Below are positions 57 through 62,221 of a stretch of 64,000 bases of DNA, piece after piece; within the stretch, counting starts at the first letter, position 1, and every line of letters starts with the position of its first letter. This DNA comes from Cladocopium goreaui. Lineage: Eukaryota; Sar; Dinophyceae; Suessiales; Symbiodiniaceae. A model generated the notes under the pieces. It was given only the letters and a program-made list of their open reading frames with translations. It was not told the DNA's origin and did not search any database. Made by a program: the position numbers and the translations under genes. The stretch spans positions 113,794-177,793 of the forward strand of contig CAMXCT020001105.1 in the NCBI GenBank assembly GCA_947184155.2, read 5' to 3'.

Positions 57-3000
57 CTGGACTATGCAGCTTCTAACCGCCGCTTGAAATGATTTGGCGC
101 CAAGATGTGAGGTTGAATGGCATCTTTTTTTGGAAGAAAATATGATCCCAACTAGACAATGAATAGACCAACCGACTAACCCGTGTGAATCTTGTCCCTG
201 CCAGTGCAGCCTTTTTTTTCCGCACCAGCGCATGGAAGAAAGTATCATGTCCATGCTGAAAATGCTGTCGCATGCCCGGAGACCTTGGCCCAAACCTCCT
301 GGTTGCCATGGTCCCACCGCCGCCCCGTGCCTTGGGCATAGGTCAAATGAGGATTCATCCTCTTTGCAGGGTCCAGAAACCAGGTGCGCAGCAGTTTGGT
401 GGCGTGCTCAGCATAGTCCTCGCGGCCCCTGAAGAACCAAGCGTAGCACAGCGGGATTACCTGAGAATGTCGGCTCGGCGGGAGAAGCGCTGGCACAAAT
501 TACTGGGTATTAAGCAGTACGCACAATGCTCTAAGCTAAGAACTCCTGGGTGGCTGTGTGAATGTATTTTGCTTTGGAAGCTCATCCGTTATTCAAAGGA
601 AGCTGGGAGAAAAACTGCCCCAAACTTTTGAGCCAGTGGGTGAAAAACAGATGGTTTGCTGGCAGCAAGGACAAAACCCATGGCAGCAAGAATGAGCTAT
701 CATTTCATCTATTCTATACTGACTTTGGGCTTTGGCCATGAACATGGGCCAATGGCCCTTGAATACCTCTTCGGTAGTTGGCCCCTGGCTTCCTGCATGG
801 TCCTAGAAAAATCGCTGCTGACCAAAGGGCTGCTTTCTGCATAGCGGCGAAACGGCCTGTGGCTGAGTTGAGCAGGGCCCATCGCTACACAGCAAGTTTA
901 GGATCATTGTTGGATCTTTCGCCTAATCGCGCGCGGACCGGATTTTTTTTCGCGAGCGGTGAAGCCATCTCGAAGCAGCATGATGCATTGTCGTTTATCA
1001 GTTTAGAAAGATTACTACATTGCCAGCACCGCAGCGTCGTCAACTTTTTCGTAGGGGTCCATTTCCATTCGCATCCGCTGAAGGTTCACGTGTGTTGCCC
1101 ATGTCATCCAACATGCTGGAGAAGGTTGTCGGTGTTTGTCAGAACGCAGAGACTTGACCGTGGCACCTTGATTCAAACGTATCGTCTTTCATGCAATGCC
1201 ACTGCCAAAGCTCTGACGGACTGCAAAGTTTGCGGGTGCTCTGGACCCAACCTCTTTTTCCTGACCTCTAAAACTTTGCGGTACAAGTCTATTGCTTCGG
1301 GGAGATTGCCCATGTCCGCCAGCGTGCTAGCCAAGTTGTTGATCGCGCTCAAAGTAGCGGGGTCGTCAACGCCGAGGCTGCTTTCTTTCACTTCCACGAC
1401 CTGACGATTCAACTCAGCCGCTTCAGTGCTGCGGCCAGTCCCAGTCAAAGTGAGCGCCAAAACCGCCATGGCCGCCGCCGTATCTGGATGTTGCAAGCCC
1501 AGAATCTTTACCCTGGCTGCTAGTAGTTTGCGGCACGATTCCACAAATTCACCTGGCGTTTCCCCCCTTTTGTTAATCATGTCACACAGTATTGACTCAA
1601 GCCGCTGGAGGGATTTGCGGGTTCTTGGATGTTGAGGACCCAAGTGCCTTTCCCTGGCTTCCAAAGCGCGCCTTTGCAGTTCCACAGCTTCGCGCAGCCC
1701 ACCTTTAACATGTAATGCCGCTGCCAAATGGCTGACAGACTGCAAAGTCTGAGGATGCTCAGGGCCCAATGTCTTTTCTCTTGCCTCCAAAGCGGTGCGG
1801 TGCAAGTCCGTCGCTTCACCAAGGTTGCCCATGTCTGCCAAGGCAGTAGCCAAGTTAGTGATTGTATGCAAAGTAGCAGGATGACTGGTACCCAACCACC
1901 TTTCTTGGAAGCTTAAAACTTGACGATACAACTCAGCAGCTTCAGCGTCACTGCTAGGATTGTTCATGCCAAAAAGGGTGACAGCCAACTCACCCATGGA
2001 GGAGACGGTCTCTTTGTGTTCAGGACCAAGTGCCTTCGTCCTCGCATCAAGGACTCGTCGATGCAGCTTCTCAGCTTCACAAAAGTTGCCCAGATCGAAC
2101 AAGATTTTGGCCAGCATGCTCTGGCATGTCAAAGCTTCAGCGGTCTCAGGACCATGTCTTGATTCACAAAGTGCCAGTATTTCTTGTGCCAAAGGCAATG
2201 CCTCTTGAGAGAAGCCACGCGCTCGCAGTACCCAGGCGAGCCTGGACTTGGCGTCCAAGTCCGCAGGTGCGAAGCACGCGCGGCGGCGCAGGGTTTCCAG
2301 CAATTGTCCACGTGCATCTTGAACGCTATCTTCACCAGAGACTTGGAGCACTGCGCTGCAGCAAGGAAGCTTTCCCGGCTCCTTCAAGAGCCTGTTCCCA
2401 ACCGATTCCTTCCCGGCTGCCTCCATGTCTGGAAGTGCTTTAATTGACACATCAAAGGCGTTGACCGGATCGATGAGGATGGGGACACAAAAGGCCCCCC
2501 TCGTATATGCTGGAACTTTCTGTGGATCTTCACTATCTTCGTCTTTCTGCATCATGTTGCGGAAGTGGTTGTTTAGCAGCTCACGACTTTGCCAATGGTC
2601 GGGAGGAAAGCAGACAATATAGATGCCCTTGTCCCACCAGGTATTGGCGTTTGGCCCTTCCGTTCTTACAGATGCCCAAATCTCAGCTGCCTCCTTGTTT
2701 GGGTGCGTGATGTTTCGGAATCCAGGCTCACTCGTGTAGTGGAAAAAAACTTGCCCATCCTGACCCGAAGACAAGTCAATGGCATCACGCCACACCTGAA
2801 TTTCAGTGGGTCTATGCATCCATGTCCAATCTTCAGCATCACCAAAAACAAAATAGTCAGAATGGCAAAACTCACCTCCTGCGCGGTAGTGTGTCTCGAA
2901 GTATTCCTTCAAGTCATTGGTCCTTGCGGTGTTGTCCCTTTTCTGTCCTTTCGGCACGACGGCCGACATGGCATGTGTTGGCTCAAATAGAAGGTCTAAA

Positions 3001-5576
3001 AACTGCTTCACGCTGATCTGGGGCTCTTGGCCCTGCAGCAGTGCACGTGCTTCCTGCTCTGTGCCACCAATAATCTGCAGAAAGTGGGCCCAGCATTCCC
3101 GTGGGAGACCGTTGCGTTGAACCAACAAGCCCTGCAAGATGCTTTCCACCTCGCAGCGCGAGTCTTCCATGCTTAGCAAGGGACAGTTGCAGGTCGCCTG
3201 ATCCCTAAAACATGGCGGAGGGGGTGAAACTGCAGCATGGCCATTCAGCTCATGTGGGTATGACTCAAGAAGATTCCTGTAGTCCGCAAGCTTGGGTGGC
3301 TCAGTGTTGAAGATACAAAAACTTGGGGTGAAGGTCTGCAGTTGCTTTGCATGTTATAGGATCATGTCTGTCTGTGCTGCTGCGGAAGTTCTGATGAATT
3401 GCTTAAATTCATTCCCTGCAAGCCTGTTTGACTTATATGATGAAGATCCAGAAGCTAGGCGGACTTGTTACTACACAAGAACTTACACAAGACTCAGTCG
3501 GTTTGTGCCTGCACCAGGAAAAGACAATAAATGTGCATCCAGAGATACAAGTTCATGGGTGCTGTTTGAACGTGGCACCAAAGACCGTCAACCTTTCTCA
3601 GTGTGCAAAACATTACGATGCTTCAAATTAAGTTTCGGTTCCTGCGCTCCGTTTGGGCAACAAACAAAGGCTACAACTGAGTGCAGCCCCATCCCCCTAG
3701 CATTGATTACACCAATAAGGGATTTAAGATGAACCGATCCGTCTAATACTAGCTTGAAATGCCCAGGGACTGACTGTATCAGGGGCCGGGGTTAAAGACT
3801 TCTGGCAACGAATTGATCAATCCCCGCCAATCCCCGCCCAAAAAACCGGGCTCAGGCCTGAGTCTCCGATCTTCCCACGTTCCGGATTCTTGTGTCCATC
3901 CTTTCGGATGTACGGCAAGCCATCGGGCTTGCTAGGATCTGGCCACCAGTAGGGCCCCACACTGCCTTTCAGGATGCGGAAGCTGCTTGGGACATGATGT
4001 GAGTGGTTGGGAGCCAAGGCATCCAATGACATCTTCGTGTAGTTTGGTATGTGCTTAAAGCTTCGTTTTCTGAATCCACGTAAATACCAACCAATCAACG
4101 AACTACGGCAGCAGAATTGACCAATGTCCCGGATGAAGTGTGAAAAATCTTGACGGCAGTTCCACTGCACAAGTCACCATGCAGGTGCAAAACACAAAGC
4201 AAGAGTCACCTGTAACGCTTCTTTGCACGCAGTTCGAACATGAACGCGCACCTTCTGCACACAGAATCTACTTAATCTACTTTCCACCTCTACTTTCCAC
4301 CAACGGCATGCTGTTTGCGAGATTTGGTAATGCCAAGTTGAATGTGAGGTTGATTGAGTGTGAGGTCGGGCGCATTTGAAGATGAATGAACGTGAAGTGG
4401 CCCTGAGCTTGAACGGCCGTGAGATTGAGTGACTGCGCGGTTGAATGAATGCGAAGTTGCATGAATGTGAAAATGATGTTGTCCGCAAGTGGGAAGGTCT
4501 CTGTCAAAAGACCAACGTGGAACCCCGACTCTAGCATTGGCTCGCTCATGGGATTTTCACTCTGAATCTGATCCTCCAAATCCGTTGGAACCCCTTGCTT
4601 CTGTGGCAGTCCCCATACCTCCAGCTCCTGGCGCTAATGTTTCCGGCTTTCTTGGGTTCACCGCTGCGACTTTCTGAGAAACAAACATTTATCCCTGTCA
4701 AAAAAACAACACTTTTGCAAACAGAATGACAATGTCTGATCAACGGTCAATATTTTCAGTGGCTTAGACAATTGACGAATCGCACCCCCTATTCTTCAAT
4801 GGCCACAATGCAAATAAAGCTGCAATCCCGTGCAGCCCATCAACCAGCTATTTTCACAAGATATCCCCTTGCTGGCCATGTATGAGGTTTCCATTTTGCA
4901 ACAATGCAATTCCTATGATGTAGCCCAAGGGGCAGTAGTCGTGCAGGTTGCCACTGGGCGGCGGGCTCTTCTTCGCCGTCACCGAGAACGGTCCGGCGCT
5001 CAGCTTTTCGTCGGCATCTTTCAGCAGCCGCGCCAACGGAGCCTCCAAGGACTTGTCGCCTGATGGGCGCTGTGATTCTGTGGGGAAAGGAGTTGCAACT
5101 GGATAACCTGCCAAAAAAGACCACCAACATCGAGCGAATATACGCAAAGCATTAGGTAAACCATCTAACAGAATCTAACATCACTGATCTTGGAGATTTC
5201 AGGCAATAAACTGTGGAATGTGAGGTCATGGCTCACCTTGCGCTGTGGAAGGGGGAAACAATCAAGTGGAAAACTCAGGGCATGGGGATATTAGCACCAC
5301 AAGAAGGCATGCAAATTGCAAAATCACTTTCTTGTTGAAATGAACCGCGCAGTCTTGTCGAAATTTGAAGACGCCACAGCCACATGCAGATTCTACACCA
5401 TACATCCACCATGTGAAATCCTATCTTTTTTCGTCGTGCAGTCGCCAGCCAGCCATTTTGACCCACCGCGTGCAATTTCTGCCTGCTCTTAGCCGGCGGC
5501 GGCTCTCCAGCAATGCAGCGCCATCCAAGAGGAACACCCGTGGTGGGGTGTCATGGTCACTGGATGAGGCGGCCAT
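1..5576 (-). CDS. alginate lyase family protein, six exons, 3' end outside window
   Basis: The predicted protein matches the alginate lyase fold (PF05426), a polysaccharide lyase that cuts mannuronate-type polymers by beta-elimination. Exons are 5576-5483, 5107-4934, 3965-3879, 3415-3369, 460-331 and 56-1. Reading phase is continuous across all five junctions. Motifs in order are VFLLDGAALLE, LHDYCSVGPYWWPDPSKPDG (HDY and PYWWPDP are family signatures), RTWFLDPAKRMNPHLTYAQG and GRCYGIVDSARL. The start is the ATG at 5576, which opens MAASSSDHD; an upstream exon is possible. I see no obvious signal peptide. Intron donors are GC, GC, GT, GA and GC, all ending in AG. The fourth intron (461-3368) contains a separate TPR gene. 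The C-terminal half lies beyond base 1. Family assignment is strong; substrate is not determined. Confidence 0.8.
331..460 (-). CDS. alginate lyase exon 5
   Basis: It encodes YAWFFRGREDYAEHATKLLR followed by TWFLDPAKRMNPHLTYAQ, near-diagnostic for alginate lyases. The acceptor is ATTCTCAG and the donor GCACGG. Confidence 0.85.
1173..3170 (-). CDS. kinesin-light-chain-like TPR repeat protein, single exon
   Basis: This is an intronless frame of 665 residues from the ATG at 3170. Residues of about 250-660 are tetratricopeptide repeats of about 42 residues with the consensus LGPEHPQTLQSV, as in kinesin light chain and nephrocystin-3-like proteins. Such repeats bind partner proteins and are not catalytic. 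The first 240 residues hold a different region (FFHYTSEPGFRNI, WWDKGIYIVCFPPDHWQSR) that I cannot assign. The frame stays open upstream to a stop at about 3356 without another ATG. It could therefore start in an upstream exon after the acceptor-like ACTGCAG near 3336. It lies entirely inside intron 4 of the alginate lyase gene on the same strand. Lack of introns next to a finely split gene suggests retroposition (inference). Confidence 0.85.
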   Translation of the reverse strand: MEDSRCEVESILQGLLVQRNGLPRECWAHFLQIIGGTEQEARALLQGQEPQISVKQFLDLLFEPTHAMSAVVPKGQKRDNTARTNDLKEYFETHYRAGGEFCHSDYFVFGDAEDWTWMHRPTEIQVWRDAIDLSSGQDGQVFFHYTSEPGFRNITHPNKEAAEIWASVRTEGPNANTWWDKGIYIVCFPPDHWQSRELLNNHFRNMMQKDEDSEDPQKVPAYTRGAFCVPILIDPVNAFDVSIKALPDMEAAGKESVGNRLLKEPGKLPCCSAVLQVSGEDSVQDARGQLLETLRRRACFAPADLDAKSRLAWVLRARGFSQEALPLAQEILALCESRHGPETAEALTCQSMLAKILFDLGNFCEAEKLHRRVLDARTKALGPEHKETVSSMGELAVTLFGMNNPSSDAEAAELYRQVLSFQERWLGTSHPATLHTITNLATALADMGNLGEATDLHRTALEAREKTLGPEHPQTLQSVSHLAAALHVKGGLREAVELQRRALEARERHLGPQHPRTRKSLQRLESILCDMINKRGETPGEFVESCRKLLAARVKILGLQHPDTAAAMAVLALTLTGTGRSTEAAELNRQVVEVKESSLGVDDPATLSAINNLASTLADMGNLPEAIDLYRKVLEVRKKRLGPEHPQTLQSVRALAVALHERRYV
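3369..3415 (-). CDS. alginate lyase exon 4 (47 bp)
   Basis: The acceptor is GCTTGCAG and the exon encodes NEFKQFIRTSAAAQT. It bridges exons 3 and 5 in phase and gives AAAQTVIPLCYAWFF, which matches the family's helix before the YAW/YYF motif. The donor would be GACATG, a GA donor, so this exon is less certain than its neighbours. Confidence 0.6.
3879..3965 (-). CDS. alginate lyase exon 3
   Basis: It encodes SVGPYWWPDPSKPDGLPYIR and then KDGHKNPE, the best-conserved block of the family. The acceptor is CTGAAAG and the donor GTGGGA. The split cysteine codon with exon 2 restores HDYCSVGPYWW. Confidence 0.85.
4934..5107 (-). CDS. alginate lyase exon 2
   Basis: The acceptor is the TTGGCAG before 5107. 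The exon encodes ARLLKDADEKLSAGPFSVT and ends in PSGNLHDY, the conserved run before the PYWWPDP motif. The donor is GCCCCT. Confidence 0.8.
5483..5576 (-). CDS. alginate lyase exon 1
   Basis: This exon reads from ATG to a phase-1 end and contains VFLLDGAALLESRRRLRAG, the usual N-terminal strand and helix of the family. The donor is GCAGAA. It joins exon 2 through a split glycine codon. Confidence 0.7.
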
Positions 5577-18426: not shown

Positions 18427-18840
18427 CTGGTGGTGATGCCACACCACAACAAACAGCTGTTAGTTGGGGTGCTGTTTTTGAAAGTTTTCCCAGTTCGTGC
18501 TTGGAACATTGAAGAACTATATAAACAAACCCATCACCAACCAGATTCACAAAGGGATCACAGCCTGCCTTCGCTTTGCTCCAGGTGGCACCCGTTTCAA
18601 CAAATTCGGAACTGCAGCGATCGCTGTGTCAGATGATCATCATTGCAGGTATGCTGGGAGTTTGATTCCCAAGTCTTCGAGCCCCCATTTTATGAATTGT
18701 ATTTCAACATCAAATACCATCTGATAATCAATACCCTCTGATTTCATCAAACATGGCAATGGACAATTCACCATGTATAGCGGATCCCATGAAAAGCTCC
18801 ATTGATAGAGAGTTATAGTGGCTCATCAATTAGCCGATGC

Positions 18841-18944
18841 TACCCTCTGGTAAACTAACATAACTATGGAAAATCACCATTTTTAATGGGAAAATCCACT
18901 ATAAATGGCCATTTTCAATCGCTACGTTAAATTACCAGAGGGTA
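18841..18944. mobile_element. family A element, 104 bp
   Basis: Near-perfect ends TACCCTCTGGTAAAC and AATTACCAGAGGGTA. A half copy precedes it at about 18731-18780. Confidence 0.9.
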
Positions 18945-19646
18945 TATTAAACCATGACCGTTCAAGGAATGGTGCACACTTTTCAGGATCTTAGATCCTG
19001 ACCGTTCCAGTTTGGGGTATGCTGTATGGCTATGGGGCACGGGGGCCCGCGGCAAACATCAAAGTAGCTGGGATTTATGTATGTGAATCCCCTCCAACTA
19101 TGGTATAATCACTCGCTTCATCTGTACAAAAATCCCAAAGTTCATCAGCAGTTTCCAAACATCATACGGTTGGGGTTATATACCGCATGTCTATTCAAAT
19201 CGCATGATTTTTGGGTCGTTACCTGAATCAATCCAACAAGAATGATTAAATTCCAGGATTCCATAAACTGAACTATTTACATCTTGGTGGATTAATTGGT
19301 GAACTCAAGATTAGTTCATAAACATTGATCCATTGGTTGAATTAACCATTAGTCAAACACCATTATTTTTGTTGGTGGTTGACTAAATTCATCTATAATC
19401 TATAAAACATGGTTAGTAAAATTAATCATCAGTTAACCATTAGTTAACTGAAATAGTTTAAGTAAAACCGTTAAGTTAACTGAGATACTATAACTAGTTC
19501 AAGAAATTATATATAACTAGTTATATTAAATTGTTCATTGTTAATAACTGAGTAAATTGTTAATTGTTAAGATAACTAGTTCTATAACTAGTTAAACCAC
19601 ATTTTTTCCATGAAACAAATGACGTCCGGTCGATCCTTCATCCGGC

Positions 19647-22600: not shown

Positions 22601-25600
22601 CCCCACCATAGTGCTGCACCCCTGGGTCCTGTTCCAAGAGAAAGCACATACCCTCTGGTAATTTAACATAGCTATTGAAAATGACCATTTATAGTGGATT
22701 TTCCCATTGAAAATGGTGATTTTCCATAGTTATGTTAGTTTACCAGAGGGTAACGTAAGACTCACCAAGTAACAACCGGAGTTTTTGAGAACGTGAGATA
22801 TCACTGGACGTTCGTGGGGTTGTACCCACTGGGAGCTTGAGAGCTGCTCGGAATTAATGTTCCCAACTTGGCACTAGTAGGACTCTACATTTTTACCATG
22901 CTCAAATGATGGTTGAGATCCATTTGTCCGGTAAACATGCTATATCTTAACCAGTCTCAATCCAAAAAATATCCTTGGAAAAAGGTTTCTTTGACTCAAA
23001 GGTCTCCATGACTCATTTCCATGAAACCATTTTCCACTGTGATTCCAAACAGTTGGTTTATCCAGTCACATCAACGGAATTTTGTTCCCAGCAACCTGAC
23101 CAGTTGCAACCACCATTTCGCAGCTGTTGCCTTGAAGTTGTTGCACATCTGTCTTCGATGGGCAAACATCAAGGATGGCAGGTAGTGTCGACCCCATTTC
23201 GTGAACCTTGGATGGAGCCAAGGGGAATGGGGGCCATGTGTCCATGTGCAAATACATGCCGCAACACTCCTGCACCTGAGTTATCACTTGTTGAGATTCT
23301 AGAAAGTTTTCTCATCCCAATTTACATATATAATTATGTATATATATATATATTGATACATGGCGAGTATCATCAAAATGATTTGCTGCCACCATGATCA
23401 GTTCTTGGTGTGGCTAGGTGTGGCTAGGTTTGGCTATTGAATACAAATCCACACAACTCAACCAAAAATTAAGACACGCCTGCATTATCCAATTTACGTT
23501 GACGGTAACTGACCCCAACAATCTACTGCTCGTTGGTGCGAATCATCCCAAATGCTTCGATTGTCCATCCAAAATATATGGTCAAGTGCAGTGACTTGAT
23601 TCTCCCAACCAATTTTAAGAACCCTGCGTTGGGGGTAGCTCTTGTATCGCCCATGCCACAAAAAACATCCGTTTTTTTGGTATTTTTTCATGTGAGTCCC
23701 CCAAATTTCGATTGGAATTTCGGTAGCATCAAAACACCGTTGGTTCTTGGCTGATCTGGGGACCATGATCTCAAATAAGCTGGGAAAAAATGACAGCACC
23801 AACAAGTTAGTTTCTTCTGGATTATCACTCCCAAATATGGGTGTATATCCCAAAATCACATTATTGGTTATATAAATGTATATCCCACTATGCACTGTCA
23901 TACCCTCAATAAATGTTTGGCTTTAGACACTCCGGCCCCATCAATAAGCCATTCGTATAACCCATATATATATGTATATATATATATATATTGTACCTAT
24001 AAATAACTAACTAACAAAATGAATAAACAACTAAACAAATGGATAAATCAATCAACAAATCAATAAATCAATGCAAAAACATCCCATCATGTCCCTTTAT
24101 ACGCCCATCAATGCTTGGTTTTAACCCCCCCGGACGCTTTGGTCGTTGTCAGCCCGATGGACGCAGCGAGCTCCACGGCGTCAATGGCTTCACCCTGCAG
24201 ATCCTGCAGCAGATGGAGGATGAACCTTGGCGGTCGCAGAAGGGTTGGATATCAGACATTGGGAGAATCATTGGGAGAATCATGAAACTTTATTGGGATA
24301 ATACTGGGGATAATAATGAACATATAATAATAATAATGATGGGATACATTCTGGTAATTTAACATGGCCATGGAAATTCACCATTTTTAAGTTCGGTAAA
24401 CCATCTATTCCTATGGGCCATTTTCCATAGCTATGTTAGTTTACCAGAGGGTAATCATGAAATTTTATTGGGAGAATAATGGGGATAATCATCATGGGAT
24501 ATTTCATGGGATGCCAATGATAAATTATGAAATTATATTGGGATAATAATGATAGGATAATCATGAGATTATTTACTGAACTTATCCCAATTATCGCATT
24601 GGGATAAAGGATTGGGGGAACATTGGGAAATTCATAGGATAATTATGGATAATTGGGATAGCAATGGGATATGTGTGGGCAAGTGAAATTGCAGAAATAC
24701 ACCGGAATTTTTGCGGATATTTGGAAAGTAAGGGCTTAAGTGCTTAAGATGGGATATATATATATATATCACTTATATAAGTGATATATATATATGTATA
24801 TATATGTATATATATATATCATGGGTACATCATGGCAGCATGAGGATACTTAAACACAATACTTGGAGGAGTGATAAGCCACCTCCAAGTGGAGACTTCA
24901 TGGCACAATGAGACATTGGGCGTTTGGATTAAACTGTTGAATTCCTGTGATCTTTTTGAAATTGGAGAAATGGATATCATTGATACCGTTTGTGCTGCCC
25001 CACAGAGTGTCAGGCTTTAATTCAAGTCTAACTCTACATAGCACGCACGACACACACACACACAGTTCATTGCATCACCTTAGGACACAAAACACTGCGT
25101 CGTATTGACCACGGTTAGTTGACATCGGGATGATCTTCAATGAGAGCACAACTATGGACATGGAGCTACATGGGTAAGCACCCGTTCTGGGGAAAAAATT
25201 ACAACGGCAGTGAAGGGAAGGCGATTTCGGGAGAGTTACCCCCAATCCTAAGCATCATACAGCATTGAGCAAGATTCAAAACACAGGTTGGTTGATTATC
25301 ATCATCTGGTTGATTATCATCCATAAAAAGTCATCATCTATTCATCTGGGATTATAATATCTGGTAGATTAAGGATATTGTCATCCATGAACTGGGAATG
25401 CCTTTGACCAACCGCTATATGGGAATGACAGAGAGTTCTGAACATACGGTACCCAAAATTTGCTGCTTCATCGTTTTCCTGTTCAACAGCCATGTCGAGG
25501 TACCCCCCAGACCTTCAGACCCTAGCTCATGGTTCTACATCCCAGTGCATCCCCATGAAACATTGCCATAACCATAACATACCTCCACGACATTTCTACC

Positions 25601-28600
25601 ATCATTCGTTTCTTTTTTCTCAGATGCCTAAGAAAAACCCTCTGGTGATCATGGCTATGGCCTTGGAATATCAGTGCGTTTTTATGGGGGCTTTCCTAGC
25701 CAGGCATTTTTGACCACCGGTAGGCTGAAATTCCATGATTATCCCATCATCTACCCAGTATTACATGAAGATATCCCATTGTGATATCCCCATATCCCCA
25801 GAAAACTTGGGGGTGCAGTTTGGTCAAATTTTTGTCGGATATACTTCAAACCAGTTTACTGTGGCCTCATATCCCATCTTATGGAGGTCATTATCCCATA
25901 GTTACCATCTGGTTATTTAACTTTTTTCATGGAAAATCCCAACCATAAATGGAGGTTTCTAGCTGGGAAAATCATCTATTTCTATGGGCCATGGCTTAAC
26001 CATGGCGAACTGTCAGTCATAACCAGAGGGTATAGCCACTAGTAGCCCCAGCTCCTGCACCCCCAAGTATAACCCCATTGGTTCCCCATGGCCAGTGGCG
26101 GATCTTGATCATAGCCATCCTCCAAAGACTTCTGTTCTCGGCAATTCGAGAACAGGTGTCATGAAACAGCCGGGACGTCCCCCGGAGAATTTGACCGGAA
26201 ATTCAACGGGAAATACTCCCTGAGGGTAGAGCCTACATGTCCTGTAACATTCCCTTGAAAACAAGTCTGGGAGTTGAGCAATAATAACTGTTCGACGGAG
26301 CGACCCATGAATCTGGTTTGACAGAACGACCACTGAAATTTTGATGCGAGCGATCCAAAGTATTCTTAATATTCCAATCAAAAATCCCAACACTGGAGTA
26401 TTTTTTTAAGAACACAAATTTCTGGAATGCCTAAACTCCACACTTACTGTTCAAAATGATGTCATTGTGGTTTCCAACCATGGGGTTATTTGGTCAAGAT
26501 CATCATCCATTTCACCAAGTCGTCCGCCCATCTATTTAGATATGTGACATACCCAAATCTATCCAATTCTGGTTTATATTTGAACATACCCATTTGAAAA
26601 TCTTATAAAAACACATGTTTCAAAGTCTTCAACATATATCCGTACACCCGATAACCATAGTAAAACCAATCATCTGGGTACATTATAATATTTCACTAAC
26701 TTGAATCTTGCGGCCATAAAAGGGGATGATTTCCCATATATTAACCATGCTTCCCTGGGTTCGGTCGCAGTGAGGAACCATTTGGGATGGTTACCCTCAT
26801 CTTAGCTCCGAAGTCGTGGCACTTCAGGTCGTTGTACAACTCGTTGTCTTCCGATCTTTTTATGGCTTCCCCGATTGTCCCATTGAACATCATTATTGTT
26901 GCTTGAATCCCCGAAGACTTTCTCCATTTCATCATTTTGCTGGGTAATTCGAATGTTTAGTACTACTTCCTGGTTCATCCCACGACTCGAAATAGGTGGT
27001 TGGTGTTTCCTTTGGCTTCAAATCCAATTAGAAAGGGGATAGCCCACTTAGCGGACTTATCCATCAGGGTTATTAACCACGTACTTTCAATCGAATGATC
27101 CTCCAAGGAAACCATCATCATGCCAAACTATTCCATACTCCCAGAATTATCTTCATTATAGACCCATAAGATCTGGCCAAATTACTTTAATTCTTACCTC
27201 GTCTCCCTCGTGTCTTAATTTGTTCCCCATGATTACTGTCCTCGTTCGTTAATTTGCAGGTGCAAATTAAGGCTTTACCTCGTTAATTCGAAGGAAGAAA
27301 GTAGCTTGTGGGCCTTCTTTCCAGGGTCCAACCCCAAGGAAAAAAAAACTTTTCAGCTTCCGAAAAGTTTTTTTCCACGATCCACGGTCTCTTGCAGGGA
27401 TTTTTAAATCTGACTCTGATCGGTCTTTGCGCTTCTTGCGCTTGGGTGGTGACATCTCGGACATTATCGCAGAGATGCAATGCTCTTCTGGAGCAACTCT
27501 GAATCCTACTGCTTCTGCAGCCGTCAACCCACGAAGCGGGCCTCTGGCGATAGAAAATAAAACTTTTTGGGGCCTGAAAAGTTTTTTTCCTTCCTTGCCT
27601 GCTGACCGGCCTCTAGCGATAGAAAATAAAACTTTTTGGGGCCTGAAAAGTTTTTTTTCCTTCCTTGCCTGCTGACCGGCCTCTGGCGATAGAAAATAAA
27701 ACTTTTTGGGGCCTGAAAAGTTTTTTTTCCTTCCTTGCCTGCTGACCGGCCTCTGGCGATAGAAAATAAAACTTTTTGGGGCCTGAAAAGTTTTTTTTCC
27801 TTCCTTGCCTGCTGACCGGCCTCTGGCGATAGAAAATAAAACTTTTTGGGGCCTGAAAAGTTTTTTCCTTCCTTGCCTGCTGACCGGCCTCTGGCGATAG
27901 AAAATAAAACTTTTTGGGGCCTGAAAAGTTTTTTTCCTTCCTTGCCTTCTGACCGGCCTGGCGATAGAAAATAAAACTTTTTGGGGCCTGAAAAGTTTTT
28001 TTTTTCCTTCCTTGCCTGCTGACCGGCCTCTGGCCCCCAAAAAAGTTTTTCTAGCCAAGCCCAAGCATGCAACAGAACCAATGCAAGGCTACCTCGTCGA
28101 GGTCGGCTAATTCTGATGAGCAAATTAAGGGCTGACCTCGCTAATTCCTGCAACCTGCCTCGTTGCCTCGGCTGTCCTCGCTATAATTTGTGCAGATAAG
28201 ATGATACCAACTATACCAATAGCATCATCATTCACTAGGGTTTATGGGGATATAGCTCTGGTTCACTGGGGGCTGACGCTGTAACTCTGGTGCTAGGCAC
28301 GAATGGTGCTGGAGAGGTCTGAGAGCAGTTTCAACTGGGCGGCGAAAATTGTTTCCGGGTATCCATACACAAATGGATATCCAATGTTAATATGTGTATA
28401 TATATATATAGACATATTTATTTAAGACATATGTGTGTGTATATATATAATTATATGTATATATGTATATCTCCTGACCCATTCGGTAAAAACAATCTGC
28501 CATTTCCAAGGCAGAACATCATTGCTTATGGTTCATCTAATCCTAACAGAACTCAAGAACTGTGAGTGTATGGCTACAATCCAGCTTCCTTTCATGCTTA

Positions 28601-49049: not shown

Positions 49050-49426
49050 ACATCAAAATAACTGGGATGTATGGATGTTCATTCCTTCATCCCACAAATT
49101 CTATAGCTTTTGATCCATAGCCATATAAAATGAGGATACGGAGGATCATCTTCACCAATGGGCTTAACATCAAAGATGGGGATGCAACTGACATGAAATG
49201 GTGAATGGTTTTCATAACTAGTATGATTAATACAAAGTGGTGCCCTAGTTTGTTAGGGACTTAAAAGGTAACAGTGGCTTTAAGCAAGAAAAGCACGGTG
49301 GTATATCTCTGGAAACCAACTAAGAAATATCAGGTGTTTCACCAGGTTCTTAGTTGCTTTCTGACTACGCAAAATGACTAGGGTTTTTGAAATATACATA
49401 TCCGGAGATAGACGAATAATATGTAT

Positions 49427-49529
49427 ACCCTCTGGTAATTTAACATAACTATGGAAAATCACCATTTTTCATGGGAAAATCCACTATAAATGGCCATTTT
49501 CAATAGCTATGTTAAATTACCAGAGGGTA
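49427..49529. mobile_element. family A element, 103 bp
   Basis: Near-perfect, TACCCTCTGGTAATTTAAC against GTTAAATTACCAGAGGGTA. Confidence 0.9.
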
Positions 49530-49656
49530 CCTATTTCCAATGAATAGATATTCCCAACAGTGACTGTTGGGTTTCAATCTATGGGGAGCCTTGACACTTG
49601 CTGTTGGGTTGCAGCTGGGTGAACTATGCTGGGAAAAAAAGGCTGGACAAATAATT

Positions 49657-50752: not shown

Positions 50753-50980
50753 ATCTGAATATGTTTGTATACATCCCCGTGTATAGCAAGCGATTGATCA
50801 GCACTAGAGTTCCCATTCCCAGCAACAACCACGCGAAATTGATGCTTGTCTAAAACCCCATCGTAAATGGGTTGACCCATCATACCATTGATGTTTTCAT
50901 TAATTGTTGGCTATCTCCCATAATATCTCCACTTTGGCTGTTTCAACCACTCATGATCGCCATATCGTCTGGGCCAGCGG

Positions 50981-51379
50981 CGGCTCAGCGGATCAGCGGA
51001 TCAGCGGATCAGCGGACCAGCGGACCAGCGGACCAGCGGATCAGCGGATCAGCGGATCAGCGGACCAGCGGACCAGCGGACCAGCGGATCAGCGGATCAG
51101 CGGACCAGCGGACCAGCGGATCAGCGGATCAGCGGATCAGCGGACCAGCGGACCAGCGGACCAGCGGATCAGCGGATCAGCGGATCAGCGGACCAGCGGA
51201 CCAGCGGATCAGCGGATCAGCGGATCAGCGGATCAGCGGATCAGCGGACCAGCGGATCAGCGGATCAGCGGACCAGCGGATCAGCGGATCAGCGGATCAG
51301 CGGACCAGCGGACCAGCGGATCAGCGGACCAGCGGATCAGTGGATCAGCGGATCAGCGCACCAGCGGATCAGCGGATCA
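50981..51379. repeat. 8-bp satellite array 1, unit CGGAYCAG
   Basis: About 50 head-to-tail units with almost no change except one C/T position. The two forms come in runs (three T, three C, three T, three C at the start), giving a 48-bp higher-order pattern. Rare other changes include CAGTGG near 51336. All plus-strand frames read through it, so the long ORFs here are artefacts. Confidence 0.95.
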
Positions 51380-51396
51380 AAGCAAAGTTCTAGAAC

Positions 51397-51830
51397 GTAC
51401 TTTTCAACCTGTCTATACCTACAAAGGCAATCTTGCTCAGTGACCTTTGCCTGCCAGGAAAAGGTCTCTCCTGCAAGCACCTTCTGTACAAGTAGCATGC
51501 CTTCCGCTTTCACAAGGCCGCCGCCCCTGCTCCGGGTTTTGTGGTGTCAGTGGTGGTTTTGCAGCTTGATTTCTGACACTTGCACCACGTGACATGACCA
51601 GCGATCACGGACGTACTTTTCAACTTTTCAACATGTATATATCGGCAATCTTGCTCAGTGACCTTTGCCTGCCATGAAAAGGTGTCTCCTGCAAGCACCT
51701 TCTGTACACGTAGAATGCCTTCCGCTTTGACAAGGCCGCCGCCCCTGCTCCGGGTTTTGTGGTGTCAGTGGTGGTTTTGCAGCTTGATTTCTGACACTTG
51801 CACCACGTGACATGACCAGTGATCACGGAA
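51397..51830. repeat. 216-bp tandem duplication at the left edge of the cassette
   Basis: Two copies (51397-51612 and 51613-about 51830) start with GTACTTTTCAAC and include TGCACCACGTGACATGACC. They differ at scattered bases only. Their position between satellite array 1 and the first ORF suggests a subterminal or promoter repeat of the element. Confidence 0.85.
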
Positions 51831-51855
51831 AGAGTTCGCAGCTTGTGCCCCTGCT

Positions 51856-52229
51856 GTGCCTTTATTTTCAAACAGGAGAGAGAACCATGACCATGCGCAA
51901 ACGTATCACACTAAGACAGTCCATACATTTCGCCGCAAGGCTGAGAAGAGCAACCAGAACAAACCACGCAACTGCAGAGCCCAAGACCTTCTCTCCCGCC
52001 TGCGACTCTTCCTTTTCATGGCGCACGGGTTTAGCCAAGCTCTGATTGCTGAAGCCATACGAAATGCAGACCCGGCTGCGCAGATTTCAGATGGTTTGGT
52101 TGTGCATCTGGCAGCTGAGCTGCAACCTCTCTTCTCGACCAGAGTTGCTGCCTACGGTAGAGAAACTTGTGCCCAAGAGTTGCTCCCCTTGCCTCGGAGC
52201 TGTTCTGCGTGCAAAACCCGGCTAGCTGA
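51856..52229 (+). CDS. KDZ transposase, N-terminal part
   Basis: The frame from the ATG at 51856 encodes a basic N-terminus and RSCSACKTRLAEC, apparently the first half of a Cys-rich zinc-binding region. The reading frame then shifts to that of 52230, where FCHACGSDRPL continues the Cys pattern. A short indel or a very small intron near 52215-52230 would explain it. Confidence 0.55.
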
Positions 52230-52919
52230 ATGCAGAGGTTCTGCCACGCCTGCGGCAGTGATAGACCTTTGTGGAGTCCACTGCATGTTCCACTGCGGTG
52301 TAGAAAGCCTTCATGCCCGGATTTTGGGGTGCTTCTTTGGTACAACTACTGCGTACGCAAAGGCAAGCATGTGTTCCAGGGAGAGCTGCCACTCTTGCAA
52401 TGTTTCATGCTATCCTCGAGCTTTGGTTTTAGTATCCCTTGGCTGCGCCAGTTCCACCTGCGTTTGGTGCGTCAGCACGCATCATTCACGAGTGAAGCCG
52501 ACGTACTGACGGCGCAAGCTGCCACCAATTCGCAGCTGCATCGTCTCCCCACTTCACGCTTGCGGCTGCTGATCAGCCAGGGATGGTTCACCTGGCGCTT
52601 GCTGACGCGTGGGCTTGAAGCCGGCTTGGATTTGTCTGTGGTAGATTTTCAATCTCCCATGGAGGACACGGCGTGCAGGTTCTTGGGTCCATTGCAAGCA
52701 GCATTCAGCCGGAAGGCCGTGGAAGGTGCTCAGCGTGCCAAAATGCGGTGCGATGTTATTGTTTTAGATGGCAATGCAAAGAACCGGAGGGCAGTCTGCG
52801 CCGCTGCGCTGGCGGGATGTTCTTACTCTCCAACCCTCCGCAGAACTTTGCGCCACACCTGCACAAAAACGCCTGCTTTCAAGCATTGCTTTTGCTTGCA
52901 CCATTGTGAAGCTCCTGGC
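52230..52919 (+). CDS. KDZ transposase, zinc-binding and first catalytic region
   Basis: The frame reads FCHACGSDRPLWSPLHVPLR, then CRKPSCPDFGVLLWYNYC, then CDVIVLDGNAKNRRAVCAAA and CFCLHHCEAPG. The V-LDGN-K motif is the first acidic site of KDZ transposases. The C-x-C-x2-HC cluster is their insert. I place a GC-AG intron at 52920-53061 (GCAGAT to TTTGCAG), which restores the frame into the next part. Confidence 0.75.
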
Positions 52920-53061
52920 GCAGATCGTTCTCACACAGTGTCTTGGCTCGAATCCTCAAACATTTTCAGTTTTGTTTGCCTTCTCCTTCCGTGGGCTACT
53001 TTTTTGAATTAAAACCCCAGGGCTTCAGCGTCGGTGCTTGGGTCTGTGCTCGCGTTTGCAG

Positions 53062-53934
53062 GATGTTGAGATTCTACAACACAAGTCTATCAATGATGGG
53101 CAGCAACTGATGGTTTTGCTCCAGGAAACGACCGAACCTCGCAGGGAGGCTTGGGTCTTGGATTCCGCCGTGCCAGACACTGTCTTGAGCAAGTACTTGC
53201 GGCAAGTTGGGGCGGAGAAGCTGAAACTTCGCAAGCGTACTCATGAACCCCAACCTTCAGACACTGCAGGGCCTTCTCCCGCACCGCCGCTGTTGCAGGC
53301 GCAGGTTGAACCCGTGGCAGAGCTTGAGCAATGTTCAGATCCAGCGGATTTAGCGTCTGTTGCATGTTCAACGCACAAGGAAAGCAGTACTGCCCAGAGG
53401 CAACTTGCCAAGTCAGCGGGCATGCTTTGCGTATGCTTGTCCGAGGGCCTTATTTTGCACATGCAAGAGATTTATGGCTGCGAGTCTCTGAGCCAGCGCT
53501 ACTTCTGCATCGCTGCTGTCAAAGCTTTGCTGCCGACCCTGACGACAGTGGTGCACGATGATGCGTGCCACTTGCACAAGTATTGCGCGCGTCGAGCAGC
53601 GCACTCTCAAGCTGCGGCGCAGTTGTCGCCACCTCACATGACCTTTGTCTGCGACAAGTTCCACATGGCAGGCCACACGGATGCTTGGTGCAAGCAAACA
53701 TGTGACCCGGAGCTCCCGTCCAACTCCGCTCTTCTCGCTGGTGTCAGGACTTCAGTTTGCGAGTTCACCTTCACATGGCTCAGCAAATACAAGCACCAAA
53801 CCAAGCACATGAACGAATACGGTTTTCAGTTCTTCTTGCTCGACATGGCGTGGAGCCACAATGAAATCATTTTGCAGGGAGGCTACAGGCCGGAGGAGGT
53901 AGCTGGCTCTTTGGATGCTGAGGATGTTGCGTAG
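53062..53934 (+). CDS. KDZ transposase, catalytic and C-terminal region
   Basis: Motifs in order are AKSAGMLCVCLSEGLI, ESLSQRYFCIAAVKALL, VVHDDACHLHKYC, FVCDKFHMAGHTDAWCKQTC and VCEFTFTWLSKYKHQTKHMN. These match the KDZ blocks SAGI-C-CG, DDACHLHKY, DKFH-GH--WC---C-P and E--F-WLS-Y. The KDZ family (Kyakuja-Dileera-Zisupton) cuts and pastes DNA with an RNase H-like fold. All expected acidic residues appear present, so this part could be functional. Confidence 0.85.
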   Translation, partial: DVEILQHKSINDGQQLMVLLQETTEPRREAWVLDSAVPDTVLSKYLRQVGAEKLKLRKRTHEPQPSDTAGPSPAPPLLQAQVEPVAELEQCSDPADLASVACSTHKESSTAQRQLAKSAGMLCVCLSEGLILHMQEIYGCESLSQRYFCIAAVKALLPTLTTVVHDDACHLHKYCARRAAHSQAAAQLSPPHMTFVCDKFHMAGHTDAWCKQTCDPELPSNSALLAGVRTSVCEFTFTWLSKYKHQTKHMNEYGFQFFLLDMAWSHNEIILQGGYRPEEVAGSLDAEDVA

Positions 53935-54126
53935 CAAGCCAAAAATGTTCGGACGCTTAGGGTTTGAAGTTTGGGAGCGCCATAGGTACGTAGCTCTTTT
54001 TTCGAACGGGCTGTGGTGCTTGTAACATGTGACCATCTTTTGCTAGATCAGGTTGATTTTAGAATTCTTGTGCGGCTTTAGGTAGCCCGGTTCAAATTTG
54101 GTAGTTCGCAGCTTCTCGTGCGGAGC

Positions 54127-54667
54127 CATGTCCGGGGCTCCTGACGATGGGCAGTACGTGCCCGCCATGAAGCTGATGTGGGATGAGGGGGACAGACGTT
54201 TTGACCCCAAGTATGTCCTTGGAGAAGCCGGCCACCAGTTTTGCCAAAGCTATTCTGTCAGAGCTGCGCATCCTGAATTTCCTTACGCTTTGCATTGTCT
54301 TTCTTTGATGTGTGCTTTGGCGAATGGCGCGCGGTTCGCCATCTTTGCCACAGCACCGTCGCCTCTGACTTTGGTAGCGGTCAATGTCAACTATGCCCAG
54401 ACCAGAAAGTCTTCCATGACTGGACACGCAGAGGCTTTGGGGCAAGAGTTGGACACAGTCATCTTGGAGAATGCGATGTCCAAGCTGCAGCAGGAAAGCT
54501 TTGAGGAGGGAGCGGCTCAAGTCCTGAGGCGGGGCTTTTCAAAGTCCAATTGCCCCCCGCTGACCATGTGTGAACAGTTTCCTAACCTTGTGTTAAATTT
54601 TCATGTGTTTCTAAATCTTTGCCAGGAACCAAAAGACACAAGTGACCCCGCTGCTGCAGGTATTTGA
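54127..54667 (+). CDS. unidentified cassette protein, part 1
   Basis: From the ATG at 54127 the frame encodes 180 residues including VNVNYAQTRKSSMTGHAEAL. That segment resembles the P-loop-like GxRKSS region of DUF3987-type proteins, a weak similarity seen by eye. Introns probably interrupt the end (acceptor TTTGCCAG at 54626, donor GTATTT after 54659). Confidence 0.4.
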
Positions 54668-55224
54668 AGCCAAGAATCGCTTCTGCGACTGTTGCCAGCG
54701 CCACACCGGAAGAATGGTTTCACCGTTGCTCTGCTGACTGGAACCAAGTCCGCAACGCAGACAAGCTGCCAGGAGATTGGTCTGGGCGTTGCTGGTACGG
54801 CTTGCTAGGCAACTTTGATGAAGCCTACGACTTCTTGCTGAGCCTTGGCCTGTTGTCCGACTCAAATGCAACAACGAGAGAGAAATCAAAAAGCAAAGTC
54901 GACCCGTACCAGAGCGCGTTCAACAAGCTCTTGCAATTTGGGTCTAGTGCTCGTGCCACCAAGACGGCAGGGAGCTACGGTGAGAACCCTGGTAAAACCA
55001 TAAGCTTGGGCATCACTTGCAACATGCACCCGGCCTTCTACATCCCAATGGAGCGGGGCGAGCTTGGAAGCCACGCAGCCTCCACCAAGGAAAGGTTCCT
55101 CATCTCCACTGGCCGCCCTGTTCAACCACATGAGGACATCCCCGCAGACTTTTGCTTGCCGGAAGGACGGGGTCGATTCTTGCACTGTTACATGCTGGAT
55201 ATAGCGCTCACTTCTCGGTATTAA
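54664..55224 (+). CDS. unidentified cassette protein, part 2
   Basis: The frame includes ATPEEWFHRCSADWNQVRN, DEAYDFLLSLGLLSD and MHPAFYIPMERGELGSHAAS with a GRFLHCYMLDI end. It looks conserved and coding, and probably continues part 1. The similarity to DUF3987-like proteins is only an impression. Confidence 0.45.
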   Translation: MKPRIASATVASATPEEWFHRCSADWNQVRNADKLPGDWSGRCWYGLLGNFDEAYDFLLSLGLLSDSNATTREKSKSKVDPYQSAFNKLLQFGSSARATKTAGSYGENPGKTISLGITCNMHPAFYIPMERGELGSHAASTKERFLISTGRPVQPHEDIPADFCLPEGRGRFLHCYMLDIALTSRY

Positions 55225-55332
55225 GGCATGTAAAGCACAAACACTGTCATGAATTCAAGTTCTGAGCCTGTCAGTCTTTGTGGATTTTCTGAGTTGAGAC
55301 GCGTGCAGGAGTCTCGCCATACAGGTGGGTCC

Positions 55333-56000
55333 CCCTCACTCCTGAGATTGCAGACCTCATTGGGGTTGCTAAAGAAGCAACATCGCCAGACGCAGCTGCC
55401 CAAGAATGGGCAGAAGCTGGGCTTGAAGACGAAGCCGCGGCCCAACTCACCCAGAATGCTGCCGGTGAGTATGTGCCGTCGGAAGACGGCTACCTTGTCA
55501 GGCTCTTAGATGACAAGCTGACCCGCATCCGCTTCAGGCGATCAGAGGCAGCCCCAAACGGCTTTGAAGCAGAGTGGAGGGTAGCGAACCGAAACTTTGC
55601 AATCCCGGAGGTGTGCCGTTTGAGAAATTGCATTGCTAGGGTGGCCACCTATTTCGCAGCGCCACACCAAGTTATCACTTTGACTTCGGAGGCTGAGTCA
55701 TGGCATCTGTCTTACCAGGGAGCAATGAATGTCCAAAGCCACGTGGTTCGTGATACTGGAGACATCCAAGCTGGGGCTCGCTTCGGGGCGGCGCCTTGGC
55801 AAGTAGGGGTTTTAGCTGCTTTGCTCCTGGTCTTCGAAATCTTTGTCGGCGCCCACTCCCCTGCAGCGCTGGAGGGGCGAGCTTTGCAGGTTACACCCGG
55901 GCACTTGCAGCGGGCGTACGCCTTGCTTCAATTGGCTCCTTGGCCGCGTTATTTTGAGTGTTCTGAACGTCACCTTGTTCCCCATGTTCCATCCAGCCTG
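55333..56000 (+). CDS. unidentified cassette protein, part 3
   Basis: The frame starts after an acceptor-like CATACAG and reads PLTPEIADLIGVAKEATSPD, then EYVPSEDGYLVRLLDDKLTR and a final GHLQRAYALLQLAPWPRYF. It probably follows part 2 after an intron at about 55220-55326. Confidence 0.45.
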
Positions 56001-56021
56001 ACGTATTGTCGCAGACCAGGT

Positions 56022-56749
56022 GCAGCGTCTGAAGCACATTGCCCTTGGAGATACAGCAGCCAGCCCAGACCTACCGCCGCCGCAGGAAGACGTCCGTGCG
56101 GATGATTTGGGCGCCTTGCGCATCCCCTATGTGCCTGAAGACTTTGCTTCGACCCAAGCTGGCGCAGGTATTCCAGAGGTGGGCGATGACGAAGAAGGTG
56201 ACGAGGCTGCAGAGGAGTCGCCGGAGGAACATGTGCCAGAACTGCCAGCACCAGTGGGCAATCCAGGACTGCCGGAGCCAGAACCTTGCGCAGCCGTGAA
56301 ACCTTTGACCCTGCAGGATGTTCGAGCCAGTGATTTTGGGTTTGGAGACAATGGTGTCACTGTCCAGCCTGACGGCTTGCATAGCCGGAATTTCACCGAT
56401 AGAACTGTTTTGAAGCAGACCCTTCTTGCTGGCAAACCGAAGATCACTAGGAAAGAGGCTTGTGACAAGATGCGCTCTGAACGAGGGCAAGGACGCAAAG
56501 CGCTTCCCAAAGAAAAATGGGTTGCTGTCATGAGGGCTGCAGCTTCCCAATTTCCCGACTTGCTCCGCCTTGACGGAGAGATTTTTGTGTTTGAAAATGA
56601 TTCCCGACACTGCAGCAGGCAAGGTCGCGTACCACAACGACCTCATGAGAGCTTGCCGTCTAAGCCTGCGGGAGTTGATTGCTGCTATGGACAAAGCAGC
56701 TGAGAAGAAGGAAGAGCGCCGTGCAAAGCGAGCCAGGGTGGATGACTGA
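56022..56749 (+). CDS. unidentified cassette protein, acidic C-terminal part
   Basis: The acidic, Pro-rich segment (ASPDLPPPQEDVRADDLG, DDEEGDEAAEESPEE) is followed by RNFTDRTVLKQTLLAGKPKI. After a frame change near 56610 it ends in a basic coiled-coil-like tail, LRELIAAMDKAAEKKEERR, with a stop at 56747. The frame change fits a small intron. Confidence 0.45.
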
Positions 56750-57312
56750 GGCAAGCTGCTTGGGCGCATTGATCCCGTGTAGGATGGTGCCAGCTGCCAA
56801 CAGAAGTCGGGTTTAAAAGAGCGGCTGCCTGCAGCTGACAACTGGCCCCTGTTCTGTTGTCATCCATCTTCACAAGACAGGTTGAGACCCAGCCCTTTCA
56901 GATTTTCCATGCAATGCATCTTCCCTGCCTGCTTTGTCTAGGCATTTCTTCGCCATCCAGCCCTCCTTCTTCTTGTGCATCTTGGTGGCACAAGACTTGG
57001 GCGGAAAGCCTTGCAGGAAGGGTTGGCCAAGAAGGGCGCACACAATCGCTCGTGCTGCATACTTCCTGCTTCATGCTTTTGGCTTGACTACTAGCCTGTA
57101 ACCTGATATTATCTAAGGTGCGAGACTTGCGCAAGGACAACGGGGGAACCGACTTACGACTTGTGGTTGGGATCTCCCATTTCAGGGGCCATGGTCGATA
57201 GCAATGGGAAAACGTGGTTGAAGCTGCGGATTGTTTTGATGACAAGCGGCCTCAGTGCGCTGTTAAGTCTCGATCAGCGGGTCAGCTGAACAGCACAGGG
57301 GAGCGGATCAGC

Positions 57313-57759
57313 TGATCAGCGGATCAGCGGACCAGCGGATCAGCGGACCAGCGGATCAGCGGACCAGCGGATCAGCGGATCAGCGGACCAGCGGACCAGC
57401 GGATCAGCGGACCAGCGGATCAGCGGATCAGCGGACCAGCGGACCACCGGATCAGCGGATCAGCGGATCAGCGGACCAGCGGACCAGCGGACCAGCGGAC
57501 CAGCGGACCAGCGGACCAGCGGACCAGCGGATCAGCGGACCAGCGGACCAGCGGATCAGCGGACCAGCGGACCAGCGGATCAGCGGATCAGCGGACCAGC
57601 GGACCAGCGGATCAGCGGATCAGCGGACCAGCGGACCAGCGGATCAGCGGACCAGCGGACCAGCGGACCAGCGGACCAGCGGATCAGCGGACCAGCGGAC
57701 CAGCGGACCAGCGGATCAGCGGACCAGCGGATCAGCGGACCAGCGGACCAGCGGATCAG
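57313..57759. repeat. 8-bp satellite array 2, unit CGGAYCAG
   Basis: About 56 units in the same orientation as array 1, with a higher share of the C form and a run of seven C units near 57473-57528. Degenerate units (GTCAGCTGAACAGC) precede it from about 57270. It ends 12 bp from the stop codon of the minus-strand ORF at 57772. Confidence 0.95.
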
Positions 57760-57771
57760 ACAGCCCCACGA

Positions 57772-58289
57772 TCATAAGTCGACTGGGCTTGTGTTCGCGA
57801 TCTTGTCGCGCAATTCCTTAACCGTGATCTCCTTGGTGATCATGCTGTTCTGCCCGGTGTAGTGGTCTTTGAGGGTATCCCAAAATTCATCTATTCTAAT
57901 CGCGCACTCGAAGGTGCACAAGAGCTGCATGATGCTTTGCTCATCTGGATTTCTGGCGGCCCCTTCCACCAACTTTGATAGTCGGGCCCCTTTGTCAATG
58001 AAGCTAGTGACGGACATCTTCAACTCGTTCTCGTTGGTCACTTTTGACATCATTTTCATGAGCAACCTGACTGCATGAGTCACAAATGTTCTGCCACTTC
58101 TGTCCATGACAAATGCTAAGGCCACAACGACAGGAGGAGATATCTTCACTCGATTCATCCATTCGTCAATGTCCTTGTCCTTGCAACCCCTGAAGTTCGT
58201 CTCATCGTAGGTGGAGAATGGAGCAGGAAGGTTGTGCTCTTGGTTCTTCTCCTTGATGAGGGACAAAGTTGATTTCAGTGAGCCAATAC
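57772..58289 (-). CDS. terminal exon of an unidentified gene
   Basis: A 172-codon open frame runs from the acceptor-like GTTGAAG at 58290 to a TGA at 57772. It reads GIGSLKSTLSLIKEKNQEHN, VVVALAFVMDRSGRTFVTHA and FECAIRIDEFWDTLKDHY. It is largely helical with no motif I recognise. A possible first exon with ATG (MACSEISALE then GTAAAA) lies at 58875-58904. Confidence 0.55.
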
Positions 58290-58670
58290 CTTCAACATCT
58301 GTTTATATCCTATTTGCAGCAACTTTTCTATCAAACACTCCATGAGTACACATCATTGATGGGTTTTGAACACACTCCAAAAACTGTTGGTTGGTATCCT
58401 CATAAAAGAATTACTTAACCTCCAAATATTTTCTCGTTTCAATACATTTTTTTATGCTTCACACTTTATTTTTTCATGGTCAAATCCCCATTAGATAATT
58501 CATAAGTCCCATTATACCCAACAAGATCCCTAGAAGACCTCATACAGTCTAATAGATTGTGAATTAATCCCCGTTCATCACTATACCCATCACTAATAGC
58601 AATTTATATCCTAATTACTTGTCACTTCATCCCAATTATTGGTGAATCTCCAGTGTTGGTTATATCAATC

Positions 58671-61942: not shown

Positions 61943-62006
61943 GATGTGGTCCAACAGCTGATGTTGGCACTGTCTTAGGTGCAAACATGCCATGAGATGC
62001 AGGTAA

Positions 62007-62113
62007 TACCCTCTGGTAAACTAACATAGCTATGGAAAATGGCCATGTATAGTGAGTTTTCCCATTAAACATGGTGATTATCCATAGTTATTATTTTAGT
62101 TTACCAGAGGGTA
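62007..62113. mobile_element. family A element, 107 bp
   Basis: TACCCTCTGGTAAACTAAC to TTAGTTTACCAGAGGGTA, near-perfect arms. Confidence 0.9.
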
Positions 62114-62221
62114 TAATGTCTTTCAGCCGGACGATTTCATCCATCAAATTGCGAGGCCAAACCACACAGCAGATTGCGGTCTCGCATGTAATTCTGTGGA
62201 TTTCGGGAAACGTCAGCCCCG

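Follow-up and report, generated by a model that had tools for sequence, protein, structure and literature searches.

Direct arrays of an 8-bp repeat within the shared termini of a probable KDZ-type transposon from Cladocopium goreaui

In the window analysed here, a stretch of 64,000 nucleotides of Cladocopium goreaui DNA (contig CAMXCT020001105.1 of assembly GCA_947184155.2, positions 113,794 to 177,793), a KDZ transposase gene and a second gene on the same strand lie between two arrays of the 8-bp unit CGGAYCAG. Do these arrays belong to a mobile element, or are they a satellite in which an element landed? A sequence-only reading of the window had raised both possibilities, that the arrays were subterminal repeats of the element and that the element targeted or seeded the satellite. 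By comparison of sequences, the arrays were shown to sit inside termini shared with related array-bearing open reading frames (ORFs), i.e. within the element, which is very probably a KDZ-superfamily DNA transposon of the cut-and-paste type, with short imperfect terminal inverted repeats (TIRs), subterminal same-direction 8-bp arrays, a transposase and a second gene.

The presence of two CGGAYCAG arrays in one orientation, enclosing the transposase, was confirmed by exact-match counts, Tandem Repeats Finder and Pfam. The exact unit occurred 101 times in the window, against 2.43 expected (standard deviation 1.69), always on the + strand and always within the two arrays. The transposase and further ORFs did lie between the arrays as first described, but the element exceeded them, reaching from about 50948 to 57780 and leaving 32 bp on the left (50948–50979) and 21 bp on the right (57760–57780) outside the arrays. 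A step in GC content marked the element, with 0.557 in 50948–57780 versus 0.41–0.42 in the DNA to either side. Its outline was as follows.

50948–57780, + strand: whole KDZ-type element, 6833 bp; ends set by conservation across related ORFs
50948–50959, + strand: left terminus CACTCATGATCG, which forms an inverted repeat with the right terminus
50980–51379, + strand: left array, 50 copies of 8 bp, 93% matches (Tandem Repeats Finder)
51426–51829, + strand: left-end direct duplication of 218 bp, 1.9 copies, 96% (Tandem Repeats Finder)
57302–57759, + strand: right array, 57.2 copies of 8 bp, 92% matches, in the left array's orientation (Tandem Repeats Finder)
57769–57780, + strand: right terminus CGATCATAAGTC, conserved across related ORFs

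By reading, whichever of the three + frames is taken, the array translates without stops into one identical peptide cycle, which made it possible to query a protein database with the ORF that spans the left array. Scoring was confined to the 7989 candidates with most words in common and gave 103 ORFs. The left terminus (window 50948) preceded the array in 26 of them, 23 fitting CACTCATGATC fully and three (P0077, P0078 and P0098) being one base off. The right terminus CATAAGT (window 57779, usually then C) followed the array in 25 of the 103, all compatible; at the 10 ends where the next base could be judged, it was C in four, possibly C in four and not C in two, the latter from one locus. At least one terminus was carried by 46 of the 103 ORFs and both by five, and the sequence beyond the termini differed among loci. 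These counts refer to fixed patterns: variant right ends (P0070, P0092, P0135 and P0141) and ORFs starting inside the terminus (e.g. P0073 and P0099) were left uncounted, and by reading some pairs with common flanks are not independent (P0072/P0079, P0078/P0098, P0077/P0126, P0082/P0085, P0125/P0140 and P0133/P0136). The other 57 ORFs had no counted terminus and speak neither for nor against arrays being part of an element; four of them carried a variant, and several of the remainder, with no terminus within the ORF, looked bacterial and unrelated. Five ORFs (P0054, P0055, P0056, P0058 and P0061) shared the window's inner left flank (SSRTYF...) and the same terminus, with differing outer sequence and with arrays varying from 9 to 14 counted peptide units, which is sequence evidence for mobility. 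That the arrays are the element's subterminal repeats was thus well supported, a common terminus flanking the array in 46 of 103 ORFs while the outer sequence changed.

The sequence-only reading had proposed a search for inverted ends outside the arrays, and these were found. Compared as inverted repeats, the window's termini agreed at 10 positions out of 12 and at 15 out of 24, the repeat comprising about 12 bp and a GTCTG block; among 400,000 random position pairs, 45 were as good over 12 positions and 133 over 24. An exact search of viral and genome contigs with the right terminus gave no match. A single viral-contig match to the 8-bp pattern (L001) was a short run of units in different surroundings, and on reading it was rejected as a relative.

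Arrays without a transposase, which had been named in advance as a finding that would speak against a link between the two, do occur, but the copies visible as a whole bear the element's termini. Five ORFs (P0077, P0078, P0098, P0109 and P0126; three loci by reading) consisted of terminus, array and terminus with little else, over about 189–519 nt. P0078 and P0098 have flanks in common and measure about 519 and 285 nt; P0078 has, in addition, sequence that is not array, and in P0126 part of the array is inverted. Since they carry the element's termini, these array-only copies look, from sequence, like non-autonomous copies of the element. In P0077 and P0126, read in two frames, the flank directly after the right terminus seemed to begin with CCACTCATGG, resembling another left terminus, as though a second element followed immediately.

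The flanks of these five two-ended ORFs were compared by back-translation, with the base following AAGT set to C for right ends in the HKS frame. With a length of 8 bp and the right end placed one base past AAGT, the flanks of P0078, P0098 and P0109 were compatible with a duplication at 8 of 8 positions, while 2.0% of 645 mismatched left/right flank pairs were compatible at 8 bp. The start codon of P0098, read together with P0078, favoured 8 bp. Target duplications of 8 bp are supported but not proven by these back-translated flanks.

The transposase gene was made up as follows, its 5′ part (51856–52277) lying in another frame.

52230–52940, + strand: upstream exon of the transposase, containing the VPLRCRKPSC cysteines and DVIVLDGNAKNRR; 3′ end at an inferred splice site
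53059–53934, + strand: main exon of the KDZ transposase with HDDACH and CEFTFTW motifs; match to PF18758

The ORF at 53038–53934 matched the Pfam family KDZ (PF18758) with E 1e-9 and 38.9 bits (cut-off 26.6). The V-LDGN-K motif, earlier assigned to the transposase, proved real but located in the upstream exon (ORF 52230–53012). The HDDACH and CEFTFTW blocks, presumably catalytic, were conserved. The transposase has 53 relatives, of which P0004 is named as Durusdinium trenchii (72%). As to an N-terminal cysteine cluster of the CxC type, the relative P0010 matched CxC5 (PF18718) at E 0.00016 and 22.2 bits, under the cut-off of 26.9, and the upstream ORFs of the window matched no family at E up to 1. 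No transposase relatives were confirmed in viral or genome contigs. By reading, the window's copy changes frame relative to its relatives at about 52277 and again at about 56596, which may mean inactivity or errors of sequencing.

Downstream lies the second gene, in four parts.

54128–54560, + strand: exon A, with the loop-like motif NVNYAQTRKSS; 3′ end inferred
54660–55217, + strand: exon B, with ATPEEWFHRC, NFDEAYDFL, PMERGE and RPVQPH blocks; ends inferred
55310–55970, + strand: exon C, resembling P0161 and P0159 by reading; ends inferred
56008–56749, + strand: 3′ part, with P0114 as a relative; the frame shifts at about 56596 (by reading)

The second gene had 37 relatives, two of them named as Prorocentrum cordatum, with NVNYxQTRKSS and DEAYD as alignment blocks. 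Searches of Pfam, NCBIfam, PHROGs and PDB sequences gave nothing above cut-off; its best Pfam match was SpoIVA_C (E 0.0045, 17.5 bits versus 25), in one of 25 relatives. Two structure models were of low confidence (mean predicted local distance difference test scores 56.7 and 55.6), and a Foldseek search with the first model found nothing with an E-value of 0.001 or below. A likeness to DUF3987 ATPases was considered, but no search supported it. By reading, in P0114 an array ORF is fused to a stretch related to the C-terminus encoded by the second gene.

Contig sizes were compared for all matches that have one (51 of 53 KDZ, 100 of 103 array and 36 of 37 second-gene matches). KDZ and second-gene matches fell on contigs of identical size (10003, 22307, 281615 and 594071) in 4 of 1836 pairs, a further 8 of the 1836 being within 1% but unequal. 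Array and second-gene matches did so in 2 of 3600 pairs (77230 and 548342), with 11 more within 1%. In EukProt, relatives of the KDZ and second-gene proteins bear the neighbouring gene names s5105_g2 and s5105_g3. That the transposase and the second gene travel as a pair is supported but not proven.

Could the element have inserted into an existing CGGAYCAG satellite by target preference, splitting it in two? The two arrays are identical in unit and orientation, as halves of a split array would be. However, each array has a common terminus on its outer side, followed by sequence that differs among loci; it is the outer edges that form the inverted repeat, none being found above shuffles at the inner ones; and at two loci the DNA outside the arrays is compatible with 8-bp duplications. 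Because the terminus is outside the array and unrelated sequence comes next, the proposal that the element targets the satellite was contradicted, and insertion into a satellite is very improbable. It is possible, if somewhat doubtful, that the arrays belong to the element but are passive, a short subterminal repeat expanded by slippage with no role in transposition. Their variable length (as in P0078 and P0098) would fit this, as would a comparison of the two arrays in the window, whose unit patterns have nothing in common beyond chance (longest common run 11, matched in 26% of 300 shuffles); against it, arrays recur by the termini with several internal flanks, which suggests retention, although this is indirect and comes from a search biased to array carriers. 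An assembly chimera, in which the left half of one copy and the right half of another were joined within the arrays, is an unlikely source of part of the window's structure. Long near-identical arrays are generally hard to assemble, and the window's copy has no target duplication, but the description of the ends is drawn from other copies and would be unaffected.

Several points weigh against the preferred reading, that of a KDZ transposon with arrays inside its termini. KDZ and array matches fell on equal-size contigs in 0 of 5100 pairs, so only the window, together with the indirect route via the second gene, ties the transposase to the arrays. For loci other than the window, the termini were deduced from back-translated protein fragments and not read as DNA, and the array-ORF search favours array carriers, so that array-less relatives would be missed. 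In a free search near both edges, 8 of 179,775 position pairs equalled the TIR. The comparison of flanks covered 16 combinations (8 lengths × 2 offsets), and only two independent loci support the 8-bp duplication, the flanks of P0078 and P0098 being shared. The P0077/P0126 locus was compatible at 6 of 8 positions, and at just 4 of 8 when two frames were read; at 9 bp and the other offset P0078 and P0109 fitted too, but P0098 did not. The duplication that the sequence-only reading had suggested looking for around the window's element was absent (GTTTCAAC versus GACTGGGC, 3 of 8).

The available parts of published accounts offer several comparisons with this KDZ-type element. Cryptococcus neoformans KDZ1, KDZ2 and KDZ3 have TIRs of 241, 139 and 169 bp, a CxC1 domain and target duplications of 8 bp (KDZ1) or 4–8 bp (PMC12810828). 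They resemble the window's element in the KDZ transposase and the TIRs, and 8 bp is also the duplication size that would fit at two loci of related elements; the window element's TIR is short and imperfect against their 139–241 bp, and the word “tandem” is absent from that text. Zisupton, Dileera and Kyakuja belong to the superfamily of the window's transposase: 8-bp duplications are described for Zisupton and a Dileera lineage, inverted repeats with no duplication detected for nematode Zisupton, and 7-bp duplications with CA..TG ends and no inverted repeats for Kyakuja, while “subterminal” occurs in neither text (PMC12730594, PMC9297572). The Drosophila foldback elements Tetris and Galileo carry internal tandem repeats near their ends, as the window's element does, and the tandem repeats of Tetris (unit about 220 bp) are described as seeds of satellite arrays (PMC4079207). 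These repeats lie within long inverted repeats and are mirrored at the two ends (PMC4079207), whereas the window's arrays have an 8-bp unit, run in the same direction and accompany a KDZ transposase. Long inverted repeats holding tandem repeats, which define foldback elements, were not found here, the TIR being about 24–28 bp and outside the arrays. Giant KDZ elements of Ectocarpus are likewise algal; the giant families described with them often have extra genes as well as pseudogenised transposases for which mobilisation in trans is proposed, and are generally >10 kb, the KDZ ones up to 30.3 kb, and arrays are unmentioned in the available part of the paper (PMC12477816). Among the matches listed from the open literature, no title or beginning of an abstract described such arrays in KDZ elements. 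If the reading holds, the element has an end architecture for KDZ elements not found described in the open papers searched, as far as these were available.

How might such an element work? The KDZ transposase would pair the two short termini and insert with an 8-bp duplication, a step supported but not proven. Subterminal motifs are present in the plant elements Ac and En/Spm. Extra transposase binding sites have been described for Galileo, in the available part of that paper (PMC4079207). By analogy with both, the arrays are likely docking platforms, and would offer multivalent sites for the transposase or its partner beside the short imperfect TIRs. As the arrays have the same direction, the genes would be lost if the two recombined, and what stayed would be terminus, array and terminus, as P0077, P0078, P0098, P0109 and P0126 look; such small array-only elements could then be moved in trans. 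Taken as a whole, we tentatively propose a two-protein dinoflagellate KDZ system (the transposase and its NVNYxQTRKSS partner) in which direct arrays form a recognition platform, recombination continually yields array-only units, and a satellite spreads as a non-autonomous transposon. The second gene, which seems to accompany the transposase in dinoflagellates, is a candidate transposition partner, and the element may be spreading an 8-letter repeat through genomes. If true, this would explain the origin of one dispersed short satellite and provide a concrete route from direct subterminal arrays to many small elements derived from one autonomous element.

Around the element, the host DNA is very densely set with a short palindromic repeat of about 105 bp, resembling a miniature inverted-repeat transposable element (MITE), with TTACCCTCTGGTAA ends.

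18840–18945, 22648–22753, 49425–49530 and 62006–62114: examples of the MITE-like repeat, as inverted pairs

Its ends were matched 42 times in the window (at most two mismatches) versus 0.47 expected. Inside the element there were 0 against about 5 expected (P ~0.007 if the ends are independent, an optimistic value since MITE ends are partly paired and hence dependent), consistent with the element having arrived later than the host repeat.

On the − strand, a 176-aa open frame (57772–58302) with no family above cut-off terminates inside the element's right terminus, which might suggest insertion into a host coding region or next to one. In bacterial-looking proteins (P0083, P0108, P0132, P0142 and P0156, so judged by name, Pfam domain or reading), DQRTSGPA-like peptide runs occur in genes that are normal in other respects, suggestive of an independent expansion of a similar 8-bp repeat. 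Elsewhere in the window, a 70-bp unit is present in seven tandem copies with 96% matches (27539–28034), and a 726-aa open frame with tetratricopeptide repeats lies on the − strand at 1173–3353.

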